Virus record (IMG/VR): IMGVR_UViG_3300046449_000348
Span: 1 to 42,441 of that record
Length of the DNA stretch: 42,441 bases
Strand: one strand, 5' to 3'
Source: a virus
A program made the position numbers and the translations under genes. This document shows positions 4,609-19,217 of this stretch, piece by piece. Position 1 is the first letter of the stretch, and the number at the start of each line of letters is the position of its first letter. The notes beneath the pieces are model-generated. The model had not been told where the DNA came from and did no database searches. It worked only from the letters and a program-made list of their open reading frames with translations.

Positions 4609-5223
4609 CTACGTTCTCCAAGAGGCGATTACTTTACCTTTGATCACTACGTTTTTGCCGTCAACCACGTGCACGCGTTGTTCCGATGGGGTGGTGCTGC
4701 CTGATACTAAAACTGGCGGTTCAAATCGTCGTAGCAATGTGGAAGCTATTCCTGTTTGCCAGTCGTAAATCTGTGCAAGCACAATGTCACCGGTCTTACA
4801 TGTTTCGGATTTATTTGTGTCGACTAGAAGCTTGTCGCCGATGGAGTATCCGTTCATCACCATAGATCCAGTGCGTACCCTCCAAACATCTATGCCAGGC
4901 GTTCCGCCGCCTAGCCCGGTTACGATGCCGTGCATAGCAACTTGCTCATGAGCTGACCCTTCCCACAGTGCAGCGTCACCATTCGATTGGCTTGGTTCAA
5001 GTTTCTTTGCTTCTTGAACCTCTAGTGCGCCGGCGTGTTTGAGGACCTGGTCTAGTGGAACCTTTAGCACCTCGGCGAAAGCTTTCGCCCACTCAAGGCT
5101 CATTTTTTGATGGCCATTGTATATGCGCGAGACGATTGAGCGATCACGTCCCATTTTTTGCGCAATATCTTCGGCCGTAACGCCCGCAGCTTTTTGCTTA
5201 GTTTTAAACCACTTGTCATCCAT
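4609..5223 (-). CDS. CI-like repressor: helix-turn-helix plus S24 peptidase-like domain
   Basis: This 204-aa protein is the likely lysogeny repressor. Residues 13-65 form an HTH of the XRE type (AEDIAQKMGRDRSIVSRIYNG). The C-terminal domain matches LexA/S24 folds: TGSM with Ser120, GDKLLVD, then GDIVLAQIYD. The position of the catalytic lysine (usually TVKR) reads STLLRRF at 161-167, so no lysine is present, and self-cleavage may not occur. It is divergent from the Cro-like gene with a shared 96-bp control region containing the TGCA array. The start ATG at 5223 gives a complete HTH. Confidence in the repressor role is high; the mode of induction is open. Confidence 0.9.
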   Translation of the reverse strand: MDDKWFKTKQKAAGVTAEDIAQKMGRDRSIVSRIYNGHQKMSLEWAKAFAEVLKVPLDQVLKHAGALEVQEAKKLEPSQSNGDAALWEGSAHEQVAMHGIVTGLGGGTPGIDVWRVRTGSMVMNGYSIGDKLLVDTNKSETCKTGDIVLAQIYDWQTGIASTLLRRFEPPVLVSGSTTPSEQRVHVVDGKNVVIKGKVIASWRT

Positions 5224-5251
5224 GTGTCGCTAAGTAGTAACTGGAAACTCA

Positions 5252-5285
5252 CAATGCATGTGCAATTTATGCAAAATGTGCATTG
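5252..5285. promoter_or_regulatory. Operator array OR: TGCA blocks and CAATGCA/TGCATTG inverted repeat
   Basis: TGCA occurs at 5255, 5261, 5270 and 5279; the last three are 9 bp apart as in the array at 4149-4170. The outer parts CAATGCA (5252-5258) and TGCATTG (5279-5285) are an inverted repeat. It lies in the middle of the repressor-cro intergenic region and touches a TTGCCA hexamer at 5283. Confidence 0.65.
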
Positions 5286-5311
5286 CCAAGATGTATGTTT
5301 GCGATCTACAT
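5283..5311 (+). promoter_or_regulatory. Possible rightward early promoter (PR-like)
   Basis: TTGCCA (5283-5288) sits directly after the operator, as TTGACA does at the leftward promoter. The region 16 to 18 bp on (5305-5312, TCTACATC) is only a poor -10. If used, transcription would begin very close to the cro ATG at 5320, giving a leaderless or nearly leaderless message; no ribosome site is seen before that ATG. Confidence 0.35.
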
Positions 5312-5319
5312 CTAGCGTC

Positions 5320-5607
5320 ATGAGTAGCAACCTAACACCACTTGAAGTATGCGAACGCCTCGTTGCGCCCTTGTCTCAACTTGGCAATATCGCCGGGTTG
5401 AAGGAAAAAGCCGCATATGGCTGGCGCAACGGCTCACAATGGCGCGAAGCCGGTGATTTGCCACCGCGCGTCAACCGCACCCTTCTCAAATACGCGAAGC
5501 GGCACGGGATCCCGTTGACCCCGGCCCATTTGATCTGGGGCGCAAGCCGTTCAGAGATCGATGCGCTTTTGCAAGGCATGGCGCGCCGTTCGGTGGCCGC
5601 AGAATGA
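5320..5607 (+). CDS. Cro-like DNA-binding protein
   Basis: This 95-aa protein (MSSNLTPLEVCERLVAPLSQL) is divergent from the repressor and is the first gene of the rightward early transcript, the standard position of Cro. It is predicted all-helical; residues 8-40 resemble a short helix-turn-helix that includes AGLKEKAAYGWRNG, a pattern common in YdaS/Cro-type phage regulators. It contains a cluster of basic residues (RVNRTLLKYAKRHG). The ATG at 5320 was chosen because upstream sequence is operator DNA. A hairpin follows immediately after the stop. Confidence 0.75.
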   Translation: MSSNLTPLEVCERLVAPLSQLGNIAGLKEKAAYGWRNGSQWREAGDLPPRVNRTLLKYAKRHGIPLTPAHLIWGASRSEIDALLQGMARRSVAAE

Positions 5608-6057: not shown

Positions 6058-6379
6058 CAACATCGAAGCAAAATTGACCGCTGCCGACCAGACCCTGGCA
6101 TTTACGCTCAGCTGGTTCGTGGCCGAGCGGATGCCTAACCGGGCAGATCAGAAACTGTTTGCCGGCATCATGAACGATGTTCTGCCTTTCGTAAGCGAGG
6201 ACCACCCGATCATGCGCCCGATGATTGCCCCTGCACATGGGCTGATCCAGTCGATCGGGGCGGGCGAGCTTGGATCCGGCTGGGCCCACTATGACGCGTC
6301 AGCTGCGATCGCAAAGTTCGCACGTTGGCGGGCAGGGCGGTCCAATGAAGTTTTCCAAAATGAAAGAGGTTCGGAATGA
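6050..6379 (+). CDS. Small unknown early phage protein
   Basis: This 109-aa protein begins MASNIEAKLTAADQTLAFTL at an ATG (6050) overlapping the end of the previous gene, and its stop overlaps the next start (ATGA at 6376). It is soluble with a conserved-looking PNRADQKLFAGIMNDVLPFV core. It belongs to the early rightward operon feeding into primase and helicase genes. No family recognised; longer starts in this frame lie inside the previous gene. Confidence 0.62.
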   Translation: MASNIEAKLTAADQTLAFTLSWFVAERMPNRADQKLFAGIMNDVLPFVSEDHPIMRPMIAPAHGLIQSIGAGELGSGWAHYDASAAIAKFARWRAGRSNEVFQNERGSE

Positions 6380-7242
6380 TTGAAATTATCCAAACGTTGG
6401 ACGCCAAGGAAAAAGAACTGAAAGATTGCGCGGGCGATATCAACACGCTTCGGTATTCGTTCGAAGTATTTCTGAACAATCTTAAAAGCATCGGCATCGA
6501 TGCGAACGTGACAGCTGATTTCAGCACAGCCATCGGTGTCGAGCTGGTTCTTCCTGCACGTCTTAAGGCATTGCTGCAAGAAGGCGCGGTCAGCGATGAC
6601 AGCGTGATCCATGACGTTTCTACAGCGGTCCTCTTCCGCCATCAAAATGATGTTGCCGCACCGGTGACTGACGTCGCGCCGGCGGCGACGGATCAACAGC
6701 CCGCGATCAACGGGCTCCAGGAGGCTTCGGGCCGGTCCGAGGCACCTTTGCCGCCAACGGCTGCACGTGAGACTGTGACGGGGCCATTTTCTAAAGATGA
6801 GTTTGCTACATTGATCGACCTATCGTCGCGCGGCGCGTCGGTTAAGGACATTGCACTGGCACTGCATCGCGACACACAAAGTGTGCAGAACAAATTGTAC
6901 CGTCACCGCGCCAAGATGCAGGCGGTGAAAAAAGCGCCCCGTGCATCTGCCAAAACATCGGAAACCCAGCAGTCTAAAATAGCGGTTCAAAATGATACCC
7001 CAGTGGATCTCACCATCACCGCGACATGGACGCCAAAGCTCGACCTAAAGCTGGCGCAACTTATGGCAAAGGGCACCGGTGCAGCCGGCGCAGCTGCAGT
7101 GCTGAGATTGCAGAAAGAACACGTTCATGCGCGCTGGCGTGAGATCAAGGATTGGGTAGGTGAGCCAATCCAAAGCAACGATGACATCGTAGCGGCGTTG
7201 CAAGATCGGCTCGCCAGCCTCGATCATACTCCGTCGACCTGA
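6376..7242 (+). CDS. Putative DNA-binding protein with two SANT/Myb-like helix-turn-helix segments
   Basis: This 288-aa protein has an N-terminal helical domain (1-80) that includes a coiled-coil-like start, a flexible Ala/Pro-rich linker (90-135), then two segments of about 40 residues. The first, 138-180, starts GPFSKDEFATLIDLSSRG and ends VQNKLYRHRAK. The second, 218-260, starts WTPKLDLKLAQLM and ends VHARWREIKDW. Both have the initial aromatic residue, three helices and the basic third helix typical of SANT/Myb or GcrA-like domains. Directly upstream of the primase gene, it could bind the replication origin or regulate early transcription. No named phage family is recognised. Confidence 0.7.
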   Translation: MIEIIQTLDAKEKELKDCAGDINTLRYSFEVFLNNLKSIGIDANVTADFSTAIGVELVLPARLKALLQEGAVSDDSVIHDVSTAVLFRHQNDVAAPVTDVAPAATDQQPAINGLQEASGRSEAPLPPTAARETVTGPFSKDEFATLIDLSSRGASVKDIALALHRDTQSVQNKLYRHRAKMQAVKKAPRASAKTSETQQSKIAVQNDTPVDLTITATWTPKLDLKLAQLMAKGTGAAGAAAVLRLQKEHVHARWREIKDWVGEPIQSNDDIVAALQDRLASLDHTPST

Positions 7243-7257: not shown

Positions 7258-8421
7258 ATGTCCCCCCGTCCCACATACTCCCTTGACGAAATCAAGGGCA
7301 TGCTGATCGACCAGCTCGACAGTGTGTTGGCGCAATACGCGCCGCCGGCAAACGGATCACACACAACGTTTGGCAAATACTACACGTTGAACCCGGGTCG
7401 CGCCGATCGATCCGTTGGCAGCTTCTGTGTGACTGTGTCGGGGCCCGACGCCGGCCGCTGGAATGACTATGCTGTCGGCAGCGTCCCAGGGCAGGGGTAT
7501 GGCGACGTTCTGGATCTGATCGCGCTGTCACTGGGCTGCGACATGCAGGGGGCATTGCGCGAAGCACGTGGCTTTCTTGGCTTGCAGTCTGACAGCCCCG
7601 ACGACATTCGCCGGCGCAAACAGGCGGCAGAAGCCTCAGCTGCGCGGCGCAAGCAGGCCGAAGCGTCTGCCAGAGATAAAAAGATCAAGCGCATGAAGGC
7701 CGCGCAGGCGATATTCCTGGGTGGACAGGAACGTATCGCCAATACGCCGGTCGAGTTCTATCTGCGCGACCAGCGTGGCATCGATCTCCGTAGCCTGGGC
7801 CGCCAGCCTGGCGTGCTGCGATATGTCCCGCAACTGAACTATTACCACGAGGACGAGAAGACCGGCGAGGTGTTCGACGGCGCATACCCGGCCATGGTTG
7901 CTATGATCACCAATCATCGGGGCGAAAACGTTGCGGTGCATCGCACATGGCTGGCCCAGAAGGCGGACGGTACTTGGGATAAGGCTCCCGTGCCCAAAGC
8001 CAAAAAGGTGCTCGGAGACTATTGGACCAGCAGCATTCACATCTGGAAGGGCATCGGTCCGCGCGGCGGCAAGCCGGGTAGCCTGCGTGAAGTCAAACCC
8101 GGTGCGCACGTGTTCATCGCTGAAGGCATCGAGGATGCGCTTTCCGCGGTGGTCCTAAAGCCGGAGGTCCGCGTGTTGGCCGCCATATCCCTGAGCAACC
8201 TTGGTCACGTCGTACTGCCAGAGGCCGTCGAGCACGTCACATTGATCGCTGACCTAGATGACAACGATACGGCGCGCGCCGAGCTAGACCGCGCAATCGC
8301 CAGCCACCAATCCGCCGGCCGCACGGTCCGGGTCTTTCAAAACCGCTGGGGCGGCAAAGATCTGAACGACGCTTTGCGCGCAGCATCTACCCAAACTGAG
8401 AACGGAAAGGGCTCCGCATGA
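7258..8421 (+). CDS. TOPRIM-domain DNA primase-like protein
   Basis: This 387-aa protein likely makes primers for phage replication. Residues 1-110 resemble the DNA-binding module of phage primases (WNDYAVGSVPGQGYGDVLDL), but lack the four cysteines of a CHC2 zinc finger. A charged helical linker (118-150) follows. The C-terminal part is a TOPRIM domain: the acidic residue Glu289 in IAEGIEDALSA and the DxD pair Asp332/Asp334 in IADLDDND. The family is common in phages that pair a separate TOPRIM protein with a P-loop helicase, here the gene at 9370. The stop overlaps the next start by four bases. Confidence 0.82.
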   Translation: MSPRPTYSLDEIKGMLIDQLDSVLAQYAPPANGSHTTFGKYYTLNPGRADRSVGSFCVTVSGPDAGRWNDYAVGSVPGQGYGDVLDLIALSLGCDMQGALREARGFLGLQSDSPDDIRRRKQAAEASAARRKQAEASARDKKIKRMKAAQAIFLGGQERIANTPVEFYLRDQRGIDLRSLGRQPGVLRYVPQLNYYHEDEKTGEVFDGAYPAMVAMITNHRGENVAVHRTWLAQKADGTWDKAPVPKAKKVLGDYWTSSIHIWKGIGPRGGKPGSLREVKPGAHVFIAEGIEDALSAVVLKPEVRVLAAISLSNLGHVVLPEAVEHVTLIADLDDNDTARAELDRAIASHQSAGRTVRVFQNRWGGKDLNDALRAASTQTENGKGSA

Positions 8422-9092
8422 TCTTTGAACATACGTGCCGCGAAAAGGACCTGTGGCGAGGCTGGCTTCGGAATGGTCAGTCGGTGGAATTGTCGCGCAG
8501 TCGGCATGGCTGGGATTTTGGCTTCGGGGTTCACGTCCACAGCAATGAGTATGACCAGGGCGACCGGATGCTGTTCTTAAAATTCTTCCGTTATACGGCT
8601 GTGATCCCGCTGGGGTTTATGCGGCGGTACGTCAGCATCGATGACGAGCCGCAGTGGTCGATCTATGCGTCGAAGGATTTCGGTTTTTCACTTCACTGGG
8701 GTCAGCGCCGTCGCAGTTGGGATTGGCCTTGGGATTTGCACACGCTGGCCTATGAGAAGCAGTTGCCTGACGGCTCTTGGATCGATGTTTGTAATTGGGA
8801 CGCCGAGCCATTTTCGAAAAGCTATCCGTACACCTACGTTTTGAAATCTGGCGAAGTTCAACAGCGTTCGGCAACGGTTTCGACGCGCCGGCATATTTTG
8901 TGCCGCCGAGCGTTCAAGGCGTTTGGTTGGCCCCGTTGGTCCAAGGAAAGCATCGAGGTCCAATTCTCCGACGAGGTTGGCGAGCGCAGCGGATCTTGGA
9001 AGGGCGGCACCATTGGATGCGGCTACGATCTTCGGCCAAATGAGACCCCTCTGAATGCGTTGCGCCGCATGGAAGCTGAGAGGAAGTTTTGA
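8418..9092 (+). CDS. Unknown phage protein rich in aromatic residues
   Basis: This 224-aa protein overlaps the primase stop (ATGA) and lies between primase and helicase genes. It is strikingly rich in Trp, Tyr, Phe and His, with motifs such as DFGFSLHWGQRRRSWDWPWD and a C-terminal GCGYDLRPNETPLNALRRME. It looks like a compact beta-rich soluble protein, with no transmembrane segment. Its conserved location suggests a replication-linked role, but I do not recognise the family. Confidence 0.7.
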   Translation: MIFEHTCREKDLWRGWLRNGQSVELSRSRHGWDFGFGVHVHSNEYDQGDRMLFLKFFRYTAVIPLGFMRRYVSIDDEPQWSIYASKDFGFSLHWGQRRRSWDWPWDLHTLAYEKQLPDGSWIDVCNWDAEPFSKSYPYTYVLKSGEVQQRSATVSTRRHILCRRAFKAFGWPRWSKESIEVQFSDEVGERSGSWKGGTIGCGYDLRPNETPLNALRRMEAERKF

Positions 9093-9370
9093 ACTTCCGG
9101 GCCGAAAACCGCAATCATTCCTATGGGGTGGCGTTTGGTGCCGGCAGCTGGGTCGGCATCGATCAATTCGGATTGGTAGTCCCAAACTCCGATTTGAAGG
9201 ATCCGCTTGATCGTCAGTTTTTCCATTCAGGTCAAGCTATTGTCGACAAGGCTTGCAGGCTGGCACGCGACGTTCTGCCCGGACCATACGGTTTGAAGGG
9301 AAGCGCGCGCAGACGTAAATTTTGTGATCGCGTTGCCTCGATCGCCACCGATATGGAGGCAAACCTATAA
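9089..9370 (+). CDS. Small unknown phage protein
   Basis: This 93-aa protein uses a TTG start (9089) that overlaps the preceding TGA, with AGGAAG just upstream. It begins MNFRAENRNHSYGVAFGAG and ends in a basic, cysteine-containing helix (GSARRRKFCDRVASIAT). Its last base overlaps the helicase ATG (TAATG). Position between primase and helicase suggests a small replication accessory protein; no homology recognised. Confidence 0.62.
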   Translation: MNFRAENRNHSYGVAFGAGSWVGIDQFGLVVPNSDLKDPLDRQFFHSGQAIVDKACRLARDVLPGPYGLKGSARRRKFCDRVASIATDMEANL

Positions 9371-11400
9371 TGAGTGAAACTCAGGCACATTCAAACGACG
9401 ACTGGCTGCCAGACTACAGCCAAAAAAGCGCGGACAACCCGACCCGTGAAGATTTGCGAGAGGCACTGGATAACGCGCCGGAGGCCCCGAGAAAGGTAAG
9501 CGATGACACCGACGCACCAAAGCCAAAATCGAGAAAAGCTCCTAGCCGCCCTAGCGGAGATACGAAAGGTTCATCCGGATCTTCAGGCGGCAGCAGAGCG
9601 GGCGGGCGTGGCCGCAAGCGCATGGAAATCTTTGATGACTGTCCGGTCACGCCTTTGGGGATCCGCGGTGGGCACGCCTATTACCTTGATGTTAATGGGC
9701 AGCTAAGGGCGATCACAAAGCACGATCGCGAAACTGTGCTGTCGCTGTTCGGTCACATGAACGAGCGGCTCTCTTATAATTTCCCTCAGTGGAAAGAGAG
9801 CAAGGACGGTGGATTTATCCGGAAACCGCGCGCCTTTGACCAGGCTGCAGCCGCTTGGGAAATGTACGCGGCCGCGTCAGAATGCGGGGTGTTCAATCCG
9901 GACAATGCTGTGCGTGGCGTCGGAGCTTGGACTGATGACGACGGCCAGCTGATTTATCACATGGGCGACAGTGTACTGGTCGGCGGAGAACCACAGCGGC
10001 CGGGGAGGATCGGTAAGAAAATCTATCCGGCATATCCGCCGATCCCGCACCCTGATGACAGCACCACACCCACTGATCCCGTGCCAGAGATCCTGCGTAC
10101 GATCGAGACCTGGAATTGGGCGGCACCAGATGTTCACCCGTTCATCACGCTTGGCATGGTCGGTGTACAGATGATGGGAGGGGCGCTGGACTGGCGACCT
10201 ACCTTCTGGCTTGTCGCACCAGCTGGATCGGGCAAGTCCGAGCTGCAAAAGATGATGAAACTCCTGCACGGTGACGACGGCATCGTTCAAACCACGGACG
10301 TCACCAAATCTGGTATCACCAGCAAGCTTGGCCAATCCAGCTTGCCCGTCGCTGTCGATGAGCTCGAACCCGGCGATGAACGCTCGACAAAGGAACGAGA
10401 CATTATTGCCCTGGCGAGGGTCGCGGCATCAGGCGGCGAATGGTTCCGGGGATCTGCAGACCAAACCGGTGTTGGTGGCAAGGTATACTCAGCGTTCTTC
10501 TTCAGCTCGATCCTGATACCCGGCGTGATGAAAACGCAGGACGTCCAGCGCCTGATCCGTCTTGAGTTGCGTCCGCTAAAGGCTGGAACAGCCAAGCTCA
10601 ATATGCAGCCCCGCACATGGCGGGCACGTGGTGCCCGTCTAAAGCGGATGCTGATCGAGCGCTGGCCGACATGGGCGGAGCGTATGGCGGCATGGCGTCA
10701 TGCGCTCGAGCTTGCCAGTGTCACGGGTCGAGATGCGGATAACTGGGGCACGGTGCTCGCGATGGCTGACATGTGCAGCCAAGAGGATATCGCAACCAAG
10801 GATGTAATGGCCAGTTGGGCGGCCAAGATTGCTTTCATGGCCAACGCTGATCGTGAAGAAACTGTTAACGATGCAGATGCGATGCTGCTGCACCTCATGG
10901 GCCAGCAATATGATCCGTTCCGGCGGGGTCAGCAGTACAACATTGCCCAGTGGGTGATGACCGCCGCCAAACTACCCGGCGCACCCGACGGACTGCGCAA
11001 TACCATGGGCGAAGACGACGGCGAAGTTGCCATGACGCGCGCCAGCGAGAAGGCCAACAGCATGTTGGCCAACGTCGGTCTTCGAGTTCAGGGGTCAGGT
11101 GAAAATGCCAACGTGTTCATCGCGAACCAGCAGATCCAGCAGCTGAAGGAACTGTTCAGAAACTCTGACTGGGCGGGAGGCGTCTGGAAGCAGTCAGCAT
11201 CGCGCGTTCCTGGAGCCACACCGACCCCCAACCCCCTGACCTTGGCCGGGATACGCTCGCGAGGCTACCTGATGCCCGTAAAGTCGATCCCCGGTCTCAC
11301 CGGCTTTCCGATGGACCGCGACCGCAACGCCACTGTTGTGGACGGTGCACAAGCGCCCCACGGCAAACCTCTCCCCAATGATGTAGACGATTTTGGCTGA
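9370..11400 (+). CDS. P-loop replicative helicase-like ATPase
   Basis: This 676-aa protein begins with about 90 disordered charged residues rich in Pro, Ser and Gly. It then has a domain of unknown type and an ATPase core: Walker A APAGSGKS (Lys289), Walker B VAVDELE (Asp330/Glu331), and an SF3/DUF927-like region with ALARVAASGGEW and VQRLIRLELRPL. Such proteins act as the DNA helicase in phages with a separate TOPRIM primase; here that is the gene at 7258. The C-terminal 150 residues are variable and may bind DNA. A GGAGG ribosome site precedes the ATG. The iteron-like cluster begins 116 bp after its stop. Confidence 0.78.
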   Translation: MSETQAHSNDDWLPDYSQKSADNPTREDLREALDNAPEAPRKVSDDTDAPKPKSRKAPSRPSGDTKGSSGSSGGSRAGGRGRKRMEIFDDCPVTPLGIRGGHAYYLDVNGQLRAITKHDRETVLSLFGHMNERLSYNFPQWKESKDGGFIRKPRAFDQAAAAWEMYAAASECGVFNPDNAVRGVGAWTDDDGQLIYHMGDSVLVGGEPQRPGRIGKKIYPAYPPIPHPDDSTTPTDPVPEILRTIETWNWAAPDVHPFITLGMVGVQMMGGALDWRPTFWLVAPAGSGKSELQKMMKLLHGDDGIVQTTDVTKSGITSKLGQSSLPVAVDELEPGDERSTKERDIIALARVAASGGEWFRGSADQTGVGGKVYSAFFFSSILIPGVMKTQDVQRLIRLELRPLKAGTAKLNMQPRTWRARGARLKRMLIERWPTWAERMAAWRHALELASVTGRDADNWGTVLAMADMCSQEDIATKDVMASWAAKIAFMANADREETVNDADAMLLHLMGQQYDPFRRGQQYNIAQWVMTAAKLPGAPDGLRNTMGEDDGEVAMTRASEKANSMLANVGLRVQGSGENANVFIANQQIQQLKELFRNSDWAGGVWKQSASRVPGATPTPNPLTLAGIRSRGYLMPVKSIPGLTGFPMDRDRNATVVDGAQAPHGKPLPNDVDDFG

Positions 11401-11515
11401 TATGATAAGAGCGACATTCAACCCATTGATATGCGGCGATTGTTTCCGCTTCACCCCGACCCGTTTGGATGCCATTATTACCACGCGAGGGGTGCCTGCG
11501 GCCATGGGTCAGGGG

Positions 11516-11799
11516 CACAACGGCGCACAAAACGGTATTGCCAGTGTTGTGCCCTCTGTTGTGGGCAAAATATCAGCAATAACAGGGTGTTACCCGCCGC
11601 CCACAACGCTACAACGGAAAATCGAGACATACACACATGTGTGCACATGCGCATGCGCGCGCGTGAGGGCATGCCGTTTTTTCCGTTGTACCGTTGTGTC
11701 TCTATCTTATGTCATTGAAAGATATAAAGAAAAGGCCACAACACCCCCCACAACGCTAGGCCTAAAGTGCCAAAAAGCGTTGTGCCTACCGTTGTGGGC
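11516..11799. repeat. Cluster of CACAAC/GTTGTG repeats: candidate origin or packaging site
   Basis: The 443 bases between the helicase stop and the terminase start hold at least twelve copies of a short motif in both orientations, core CACAACG. Positions are near 11516, 11526 (variant), 11546, 11558, 11600, 11610, 11683, 11691, 11736, 11747, 11776 and 11789. CCCACAACGCT occurs exactly twice (11600-11610, 11747-11757), and its reverse partner AGCGTTGTG once. An A/T-rich stretch lies at 11700-11735 and another at 11810-11830. Iterons, AT-rich DNA and the helicase gene alongside suggest a replication origin; the adjoining small terminase gene makes a pac site equally plausible. Long reading frames cross the region but look like repeat translations. 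Confidence 0.7.
11627..11665. other. 39-bp perfect alternating purine-pyrimidine tract
   Basis: Every step from 11627 to 11665 alternates purine and pyrimidine (CA/TG then CG steps). It sits in the centre of the CACAAC repeat cluster. Such DNA can adopt the Z form under negative supercoiling. Confidence 0.85.
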
Positions 11800-11843
11800 T
11801 GTATCTAACCCCTTGGAAATCAATAAAAAAGGGGGTTTTGAGC

Positions 11844-12512
11844 GTGGCTAAGCCCAAGAATTCCTTTGAAGAGATGGCCAAGGTAGCGGCTGCGCGGCTC
11901 GAAGAGGTTCGCGCGGCTGGCCAGCAGCTGACCTTCCTGCCCGATGAGGCAGGCAGCGCTGTGGATCTGGTCCAGGACAATCCTGTCGGTCGCCCGAAGG
12001 GTGCCAAGGGCAAGGTCAACAACCAGATGCGCGACTGGCTGGCCGCCAAGGGCTTTCAGATGCCCGAAGAGGTGCTGGCGCAGATGGCTGGGCTGGCCAG
12101 CAATGGCGATGCGGTCCTGACTGCCATGCAGAACGCGGAGATGGTTCTTGCCTGGGCATACGACGGCGCGACGCGGAAAAAGAAGGATGCGCCCGACGAG
12201 TTGGTGACACCAAGCCCCAGTGCGCGCCTGAACACGTTCATCCAGCTCTACACGATCCAGCTGCGGGCAGCGGATGCCTTGCTGCCGTACGGCGCGCCGA
12301 AGGCGACACCGGACGTCAGCGTGCAGCAGACGGTCTGCGTCAACGTGCCATCGGCTCCAGCGGCTGGCCAGCCGGGCGACAATGCCCGTGTCGTGAGCGG
12401 GTCGCGCAGCGGTCGGATGATGCCTGCGGATGTCGCCTATGAAAACCAGCAAAATCAAGACGTTAGCGATGCGGGAAAATCCAAGTCGGACAAAGGAAGT
12501 CGGACGGAATGA
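11844..12512 (+). CDS. Putative terminase small subunit
   Basis: This 222-aa protein lies one gene before the large terminase and begins MAKPKNSFEEMAKVAAARLEE from a GTG at 11844, eight bases after AAGGGGG; a TTG at 11838 is less well spaced. A GRPKGAKGKVNNQMRDWLAAKG segment (about residues 50-72) is typical of small terminases and other DNA-binding phage proteins. Charged helices follow, and the C terminus is disordered and Ser/Gly-rich. The assignment rests on position, size and the GRPKGAKG motif. It would recognise the packaging site, possibly the repeat cluster directly upstream. Confidence 0.68.
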   Translation: MAKPKNSFEEMAKVAAARLEEVRAAGQQLTFLPDEAGSAVDLVQDNPVGRPKGAKGKVNNQMRDWLAAKGFQMPEEVLAQMAGLASNGDAVLTAMQNAEMVLAWAYDGATRKKKDAPDELVTPSPSARLNTFIQLYTIQLRAADALLPYGAPKATPDVSVQQTVCVNVPSAPAAGQPGDNARVVSGSRSGRMMPADVAYENQQNQDVSDAGKSKSDKGSRTE

Positions 12513-14499: not shown

Positions 14500-15003
14500 A
14501 TGACGCAGATCCATTACGGAACGAAACAGATCCTCGCCACGGCAATGACCCGTCAAGCCTACAACGATTACCGCGGGTGGGCTTTGCCTGCCGATGAGAA
14601 CGGGGCGGATGAGGGATACCTGGTCGAGTACGTCGACGGCGGCGCATCGAACCATCCCGATCACGCAGGCTACATCAGCTGGTCACCCAATGACGTGTTT
14701 GAACGCGCCTACAAGGCCTCAGGTCAGATGAACTTTGGCCACGCCATAGAGGCGCTTAAGGGAGGCGCAAATGTTGCCCGTGCCGGCTGGAATGGCAAAG
14801 GCATGTATCTGTGGCTTTTGCCGGCAGCGACAATCAAGGCCGAGTGGTGTCGCGAACCACACCTCAAGGCCGTCGCCGAAGCCAACGGCGGTGAGATTGA
14901 GGCTCTTGGATCAATCCGAATGATGACCGCTGACCAAAAAGTTTTGACAGGCTGGCTCGCCTCGCAAACCGACATGCTCGCAGACGACTGGCTGATCGTC
15001 TGA
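14500..15003 (+). CDS. DUF2829/Tad2-like protein, candidate anti-Thoeris factor
   Basis: This 167-aa protein has two parts. Residues 1-73 form a domain seen in other phage proteins (MTRQAYNDYRGW, DEGYLVEYVDGG, GYISWSPNDVFERAY). From residue 77 comes a DUF2829 domain: MNFGHAIEALKGGANVARAGW, then NGKGMYLWLLP, and the ending GWLASQTDMLADDW. DUF2829 proteins are known as Tad2, which bind and sequester the cyclic ADP-ribose signal of Thoeris immunity. That activity here is inferred from the family; some relatives may have other roles. The gene lies between terminase and head genes, so it would be made late unless carried into the virion or expressed from another promoter. Confidence 0.82.
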   Translation: MTQIHYGTKQILATAMTRQAYNDYRGWALPADENGADEGYLVEYVDGGASNHPDHAGYISWSPNDVFERAYKASGQMNFGHAIEALKGGANVARAGWNGKGMYLWLLPAATIKAEWCREPHLKAVAEANGGEIEALGSIRMMTADQKVLTGWLASQTDMLADDWLIV

Positions 15004-17870: not shown

Positions 17871-18211
17871 TCTGGGATCGCCTTTCCATCATCCGCAGCT
17901 TCTTCGGCCACGGCGAACCGGGCACACGGCAAGCCATCGCCCAAGACGCAGCAGCTGCAGAAGTCGCTGCCCGCTGGCGGAAGGCGTTCAGCCGCGATCC
18001 ACAGCTGGCCGAAGATCTGATCCGGCAATCGGGGCTGCTGAACCTGCAGCCCGTCGATATGGCCGATGGCTATCCCCAGCCAGCCCGGATCGACCCGCAG
18101 CGACTGGCCTATGAAGCCGGCCGCCGCGACCTAGCCCTGCTGATCCTGTCACAGGGGCATATTTCCCACCTTGAACTGAACCAACTTATGGAGAGCTTGG
18201 ATGTACGTTAA
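17867..18211 (+). CDS. Bbp19-like phage protein
   Basis: This 114-aa protein overlaps the portal stop and scaffold start. The C-terminal part (RIDPQRLAYEAGRRDLALLIL) fits the Bbp19 family of phage head-region proteins, where RxxLxxxxGxRxLxLxIL is conserved. It is helical with several Arg residues. Role unknown; its position between portal and scaffold suggests involvement in head assembly. Family assignment is by motif, made by eye. Confidence 0.62.
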   Translation: MIWDRLSIIRSFFGHGEPGTRQAIAQDAAAAEVAARWRKAFSRDPQLAEDLIRQSGLLNLQPVDMADGYPQPARIDPQRLAYEAGRRDLALLILSQGHISHLELNQLMESLDVR

Positions 18212-19217
18212 ATTTTTTCTCAAACCGCTGGTCTGTTTCGCACCAACAGATGAAGGCGCTGGCGGTGCTACTGCGGCCGGAGCTGAAGGAGCTAATACCG
18301 TAACGGGCAACGCCGGAGCCGACACGATTGAAGGCGGTGCCGGTGCAGACACGGTTGCCACTGGTGGTGGGGCCGATACGGTTACAACAGGGGCTGCCAA
18401 GTGGTGGGAAGATGCCAAATTCAATGACCATCGCGACCTGTTAGTTTCCAAAGGCCTGACCCTCGACGATAAGGACGAGGTAATCGCCCGCCTTGCCAAA
18501 GGTGAGAAGGCCGCACAAATGAAGCTGGGCAAACCGGCTGACCAGCTGCTGTCCAAGCCCGGCAAGGGGGAAAGCGTTGCTGAGTGGCTGAAGGCGAACG
18601 GATCGACCTTCGGTATCCCCGAGAGCGCCGACAAATACGACGTCCAGCGCCCGGAAAGCTGGCCGAAAGACGCGCCCTGGAATGATGCCCTCGAAGGCAA
18701 GGTGCGTGAAATCGGGCTTGCCAGCGGTATGTCAAACGATGCGGTCAACGCTATGGTCGGGCTATATGCCGAGAACATCATGGCCTTGGATAAGCAGGCG
18801 GCAGACGACTTTGAAAAGGGCAGCGCTGAAATGATGGCCGCGCTGGAAAAGGACTGGGGCGATCAGACCCAAGCCAAGCTGACCCTTGCCAGTCAGGCGG
18901 CGTCGGTCATCGCTGAGAAGGCGGGACTGGACGCGACAGCGATGGAAAACCTTGCCGCATCCCTCAAGCCCAAGATCGGCGACGCGGGCACCATGCGTGT
19001 CTTCGCTGCGATCGGCGAGATGATGGGCGATGACCAGATGGTCATGGGCGATGGTGGTGTCAGCTTAAACATGACCCCTGCAGAAGCCCGCGCAAAACTG
19101 AGCCAGCTTCAGGGCAAAGGCGGCGAATGGTACGAAGCGACGTCCAAAAAAGATCAGCAGGCCATTGCGCGTCTGAAGCCTGAGGTCGAGCGGCTGACCA
19201 AGATCGCGGCTGGCTGA
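18201..19217 (+). CDS. Capsid scaffolding protein with RTX-like repeats
   Basis: This 338-aa protein has the composition of a podoviral scaffold: acidic, helical, Met- and Lys-rich, ending in coiled-coil-like LKPEVERLTKIAAG. It sits between portal and capsid genes. It would guide capsid assembly and leave the prohead. Unusually, residues 36-62 form three consecutive nonapeptides, GNAGADTIE, GGAGADTVA and TGGGADTVT, matching the calcium-binding RTX pattern GGxGxDxUx. The core of the protein begins near residue 67 (KWWEDAKFNDHRDLLVSKG). The ATG at 18201 overlaps the previous gene by 11 bases and has GGAGAG upstream. Confidence 0.8.
   Translation: MYVKFFLKPLVCFAPTDEGAGGATAAGAEGANTVTGNAGADTIEGGAGADTVATGGGADTVTTGAAKWWEDAKFNDHRDLLVSKGLTLDDKDEVIARLAKGEKAAQMKLGKPADQLLSKPGKGESVAEWLKANGSTFGIPESADKYDVQRPESWPKDAPWNDALEGKVREIGLASGMSNDAVNAMVGLYAENIMALDKQAADDFEKGSAEMMAALEKDWGDQTQAKLTLASQAASVIAEKAGLDATAMENLAASLKPKIGDAGTMRVFAAIGEMMGDDQMVMGDGGVSLNMTPAEARAKLSQLQGKGGEWYEATSKKDQQAIARLKPEVERLTKIAAG

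Follow-up and report, generated by a model that had tools for sequence, protein, structure and literature searches.

The window, a virus record of 42,441 bases, carries the genes of a podovirus-like phage, including a primase, a helicase, a terminase and a head-tail connector. Its replication module comprises a separate Toprim primase (7258-8421, plus strand) and a putative initiator helicase of 676 residues (9370-11400, plus strand; Walker A motif near residue 288), and directly downstream of the array described below lies a small-terminase-like gene (terS; 11844-12512, plus strand), named for its position and a GRPKG-type motif. An Acb3-like CBASS inhibitor (8418-9092; PF25187, E 1e-51) is encoded between the primase and the helicase; its relative in one related phage (L015) is found after the terminase instead, indicating that this anti-defence gene uses different slots. 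A Tad2-like anti-Thoeris protein (14500-15003; PF11195, E 1e-21) follows the large terminase, and its relative precedes the primase in three further phages (L019, L023, L025). In the structural region, one protein (18201-19217) matches RTX-type calcium-binding repeats (PF00353). Towards the left end, a minus-strand protein of 388 residues (1412-2578), 47-99% identical in many relatives and matching no Pfam or NCBIfam family, is encoded near a tRNA-Thr gene (783-858) and is possibly a divergent integrase. The divergent region beside the gene for a CI-like repressor (5223-5380) has its own ATGCA/TGCAT-rich repeats (TGCATGTGCAATTTATGCAAAATGTGCAT), which are likely repressor operators and vary among relatives independently of the word that makes up the array.

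The array itself (11516-11796, both strands) is iteron-like and consists of CACAAC words. Nine of the 18 CACAAC/GTTGTG copies in the window fall within it, against a mean of 0.56 and a maximum of 3 in dinucleotide-model shuffles of the region, and a 6-mer of this frequency occurs in no other 306-bp segment of the window. With three one-mismatch copies (CACAAA at 11528, TACAAC at 11610 and GTTGTA at 11685) the total is 12 sites, with six on either strand. The initial annotation had reported a dense cluster of about twelve copies in both orientations between the helicase and terminase genes, with exact repeats and an A/T-rich neighbour; this description holds in each of its parts, including the repeats (CCCACAACGCTA occurs twice). 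The sites are ordered rather than scattered, forming three '>> <<' units of fixed spacing, each with two words pointing one way followed by two pointing the other (plus-strand starts at 11516, 11528, 11602, 11610, 11737 and 11749; minus-strand starts at 11546, 11558, 11685, 11693, 11779 and 11791). Partner words are spaced by 12 bp in units 1 and 3 and by 8 bp in unit 2.

Inside the middle unit lies a 39-bp alternating purine-pyrimidine tract (11627-11665), which is Z-DNA-prone; the alternating run exceeds composition shuffles in the window and in all 35 phages measured. Units 2 and 3 are separated by an A+T-rich 38-bp segment (11699-11736; 29% GC vs 58% overall), a candidate melting site with eight sites on one side and four on the other. 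The first site is abutted by a GGGTCAGGGG block (11506-11515, plus strand) that is kept in relatives, and GGGTCAGGG in front of the array is likewise part of their common layout. Further upstream, a conserved block (11440-11479, plus strand) with the form CTTYCCCCGCACCC..GTGCCATTATT in relatives is, judging from its conservation, possibly a promoter of the terminase operon; a scan for a sigma-70 consensus promoter found none. GC skew does not switch at the array and was uninformative as a test for an origin. Between the array and terS, an inverted repeat (AACCCCTTG...AAGGGGGTTTT, 11808-11840) immediately precedes the start codon of terS and is kept in many relatives; it overlaps the probable site of ribosome binding.

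Relatives were gathered from viral contigs, bacterial genomes and phage records with the helicase protein as query; a direct DNA search of the 9-13 kb portion of the window against the phage collection gave no match. They are mostly Rhodobacterales prophages and metagenomic contigs, the named genome matches being Rhodobacterales, e.g., Seohaeicola, Salipiger, Mameliella, Puniceibacterium, and Cribrihabitans. Their arrays retain the layout nearly base for base, with word pairs 8 or 12 bp apart, the alternating purine-pyrimidine tract and the A+T-rich 38-mer: the sites lie at offsets of about 0, 8 or 12, 30, 42, 86, 94, 169, 177, 221, 233, 263 and 275, the modal count is six plus-strand and six minus-strand sites, and same-strand neighbours are spaced by 8 (113 times), 12 (77) or 11 bp (26). 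The word itself varies among phages, and within any one phage nearly all copies are identical, i.e., they change in concert. The 72 representative phages of our discovery and held-out sets display 27 words (e.g., CACAAC, TACAAC, CGCAAC, TGCAAC, CACGAC, CACTAC, TACGAC, CGCGAC, CAAAAC, TGCTAC, CGGTAC, and TGAAAC), in a frame of four variable bases followed by AC that we chose and whose placement in distant phages is uncertain. For 39 phages placed on the helicase-core tree, at least 21 changes of the word are required. The system extends beyond Rhodobacterales: in a scaffold of a human-faecal phage (MT835930; L082, 8140-8500), GGTAAC words follow the same plan, an alternating GC tract is included, and a TerS-like gene comes next. 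No array was seen in the stretch examined near the genes of very distant helicases (L077, L078, L080, L088 and that of Bordetella PY223); loci L047-L050, L086, L087 and L089-L092 (short loci, opposite strand) are counted neither as having nor as lacking an array.

Left and right words being complementary, concerted change would preserve pairing between them, and the inverted words might accordingly be read not as protein sites but as stem-loops of RNA or DNA that base pairing maintains. The probability of this is practically negligible, however, because the complementarity across the arms of the 6-nt spacers between paired words does not exceed that of shuffled spacers (31/60 vs a mean of 30), and because pairing leaves unexplained the prediction of the word by a helicase residue that is described below.

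By fold, the helicase model is closest to SF3-type primase-helicases, the AF2 prediction matching poxvirus D5/E5, AsfvPrimPol, SaPI5 Rep, and NrS-1 in Foldseek comparisons (E about 1e-5). DUF927 is matched weakly by 6 of 20 group members and not by the helicase of the window. Its C-terminal domain (residues 500-650; 10867-11319, plus strand), the putative word-binding domain, gave no fold match in the PDB at E <= 0.001 (best E 0.5) and nothing significant in a sequence search against the PDB; hence, we assign it no winged-helix origin-binding fold.

The part played by this domain emerges from a pair of sister phages with different words (L033, CACGAC; L034, CACTAC), whose primases are 98%, TerS proteins 96% and TerL proteins 99% identical. 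Along their replication-terminase stretch, DNA identity drops mainly from about helicase codon 511 through the array and rises again at terS, and most of the differences between the helicase proteins lie within the last 190 residues, a second, smaller cluster occurring at the extreme N-terminus. The same association is seen across 19 representatives, where, at matched helicase-core identity, sharing a word goes with greater similarity of the C-terminal domains (residual +0.071, about 7 points), an effect reached by 0 of 5000 label permutations; among the same representatives TerS, TerL and the primase show none (p 0.94, 0.52 and 0.76, respectively). Plain linkage fails as an explanation, since TerS is as near the array as the helicase C-terminus and yet lacks the effect. 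This covariation suggests that the helicase encoded by the phage itself most probably binds the word through its C-terminal domain, i.e., that this domain of the initiator would determine iteron recognition.

The same comparisons bear on other candidate binders. The initial annotation had also offered a pac site right before the small terminase, bound by that protein, and the array does end about 50 bp before terS and consists of repeated hexamers, a feature of P1-type pac sites. Against this, the TerS proteins of the sister phages remain 96% identical despite the different words, TerS similarity is independent of the word and TerS columns reach a z of 4.9 at most, so that TerS was rejected as the reader of the word and a pac site is very unlikely. 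It had further named a SANT-like protein (6376-7242) as a possible binder; this protein and the CI-like repressor (4609-5223) both possess HTH-type regions and both diverge between L033 and L034, as might be expected if the words were operators of either. Nevertheless, we regard such an assignment as extremely improbable: the C-terminal HTH region of the SANT-like protein is nearly unchanged between the sister phages, and three phages whose arrays are intact (L014, L017, L037) lack a counterpart of its gene at the corresponding position, while the divergent region adjacent to the CI-like repressor gene holds no copy of the word. The CI-like repressor was also rejected as binder on the ground that repressors 48-60% identical to that of the window accompany the same word.

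Within the helicase, the covariation extends down to residue 624 (codon 11239-11241, plus strand), which AlphaFold models place in a beta-hairpin of the C-terminal domain. For base 2 of the word, it scores highest of the helicase columns among 39 phages (z 11.7, vs 4.9 for the best TerS column) and stands far above every other column in the combined set (z 19.5 vs 12.5), though these mutual-information z-scores ignore relatedness, and the tests with independent pairs and held-out phages provide the safer figures. In the discovery set, A at base 2 goes with T/S at residue 624 in 28/28 phages and G with R/K/H in 9/9, the rule thus covering all 37 phages that have A or G at this base. Six of six independent pairs were concordant on a core-only tree built without the C-terminal domain (sign test, p 0.031). 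With the rule fixed beforehand, and words called from DNA alone in 33 further non-redundant phages, which are partly related among themselves, a basic residue was found at 624 in 19 of 21 phages with G-words vs 1 of 12 others (Fisher p 4.4e-6); in this held-out set alone, residue 624 ranks second among columns. Basic residues facing G are a common recognition pattern. For one phage (L063), a G was expected at base 2 or 4, a weaker expectation, before its array was located, and the word found was CGCGAC. Suggestive associations with exceptions occur among close relatives (NR at 626/627 with T at base 1; R at 629 with A at base 4), and with distant phages included, no residue code is robust for bases 1, 3 and 4; for base 4, helicase core columns rank above those of the C-terminal domain.

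Given that the helicase C-terminal domain and the word covary, down to residue 624 tracking base 2, the array is very probably the replication origin, an iteron cluster, of a temperate podovirus-like prophage of a marine bacterium, with the helicase encoded directly upstream as its initiator. The origin 'right after the replication genes' that the initial annotation had considered is thus supported by the fixed layout kept across relatives under a variable word and by the joint change of word and domain. In the proposed mechanism, the helicase C-terminal domain would bind each word, and two hexamers facing opposite ways would be loaded, each orientation contributing about six words. Melting would then take place in the A+T-rich segment, either alone or together with the alternating purine-pyrimidine tract. 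The helicase would unwind outward, and priming would fall to the Toprim primase, a separate protein of this module.

The position of the array raises the question of a transcriptional role. The window and most relatives have it directly 3' of the helicase gene, several relatives having genes between the two; its contact with terS is kept more strictly. In the Rhodobacterales phages it lies in the terS leader, and it stays there where extra sequence, mostly inserted genes, separates it from the helicase (L016/L027/L028, L032, L062, L063, L072), suggesting a possible extra role in transcription of the terminase operon or in packaging. It could then be mainly an operator, bound by the helicase C-terminal domain so as to regulate how far the terminase and structural operon is transcribed, with replication starting elsewhere, and the conserved promoter-like block preceding it would fit such a function. 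We nevertheless consider this improbable, as twelve words in two orientations together with alternating and A+T-rich tracts exceed the needs of an operator, and the scan mentioned above recovered no sigma-70 consensus promoter. Moreover, Serratia phage MQ-4 has a similar GGTAAC cluster away from both the helicase and terS (three genes from the latter, on the assumption of a circular or terminally redundant record), so that contact with terS is not universal. A dual role of the array, as origin and operator, is possible.

Under the origin reading, a fast-evolving word on a fixed layout would provide related phages with different origin specificities. We tentatively propose, with somewhat less than even confidence, that in this large group of temperate phages a rigid 12-site origin scaffold has been repeatedly re-specified by joint change of the word and a few helicase-hairpin residues, constituting a natural recognition code that makes related origins mutually exclusive and was plausibly selected by cross-firing between resident prophages, by satellites or by origin-directed nucleases. 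Escape from each of these is a hypothesis for the frequent change of the word. The fixed scaffold, 27 interchangeable words and a base-predicting residue together form a natural data set on how initiator-origin specificity changes without loss of function. Should replication compatibility be set by the words, the ability of prophages and satellites to use one another's replication proteins could be predicted from them in a simple way.

Among known systems, the alpha/ori/crr replicon of satellite phage P4 has an origin recognised by the C-terminal part of the helicase and a second iteron cluster near the alpha gene. It resembles the present system in its iterons and in the use of the helicase C-terminal part for origin recognition; it differs in that primase and helicase are fused, whereas here they are separate, and no shared origin-binding fold was found for the C-terminal domain at the PDB threshold given above. 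The PLEs of Vibrio cholerae likewise comprise replicon types with different iterons, which function only with the cognate initiator RepA (PMC7145576, PMC8263062), and their origin diversification has been discussed as an escape from an origin-directed nuclease (PMC8263062). Their proteins are nonetheless unrelated to those described here, the initiator being a RepA_N protein without helicase activity and the iterons semi-palindromes of about 30 bp.

The pri-rep-ori replicon of SaPIs and other PICIs (PMC7581432, PMC6092414) is alike in several respects. It, too, pairs a primase with an initiator helicase of the SF3 type (D5/DUF927-like), and its iterons usually lie right behind the helicase gene, differ in sequence between members and provide about two hexamers' worth of sites along with an A+T-rich segment; terS can even follow. 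In SaPI Rep helicases, the C-terminal domain binds the iterons that closely follow the rep gene, with two hexamers apparently involved (PMC7581432), and is the specificity determinant, as covariation suggests for the present domain. There are also differences: the primase is of the AEP type there and of the Toprim type here, and two iteron sets around one A+T-rich region contrast with the three inverted double pairs and conserved alternating purine-pyrimidine tract of the present array. Furthermore, the array occurs in temperate phages that are complete and encode their own heads and tails (TerL and the head-tail connector lie downstream in the window) and not in satellites devoid of structural genes; as the carrier is a phage, the comparison with SaPIs/PICIs concerns the type of replicon only. 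With this qualification, the sequence features are best explained by an iteron origin similar in kind to that of SaPIs/PICIs and carried by complete temperate phages.
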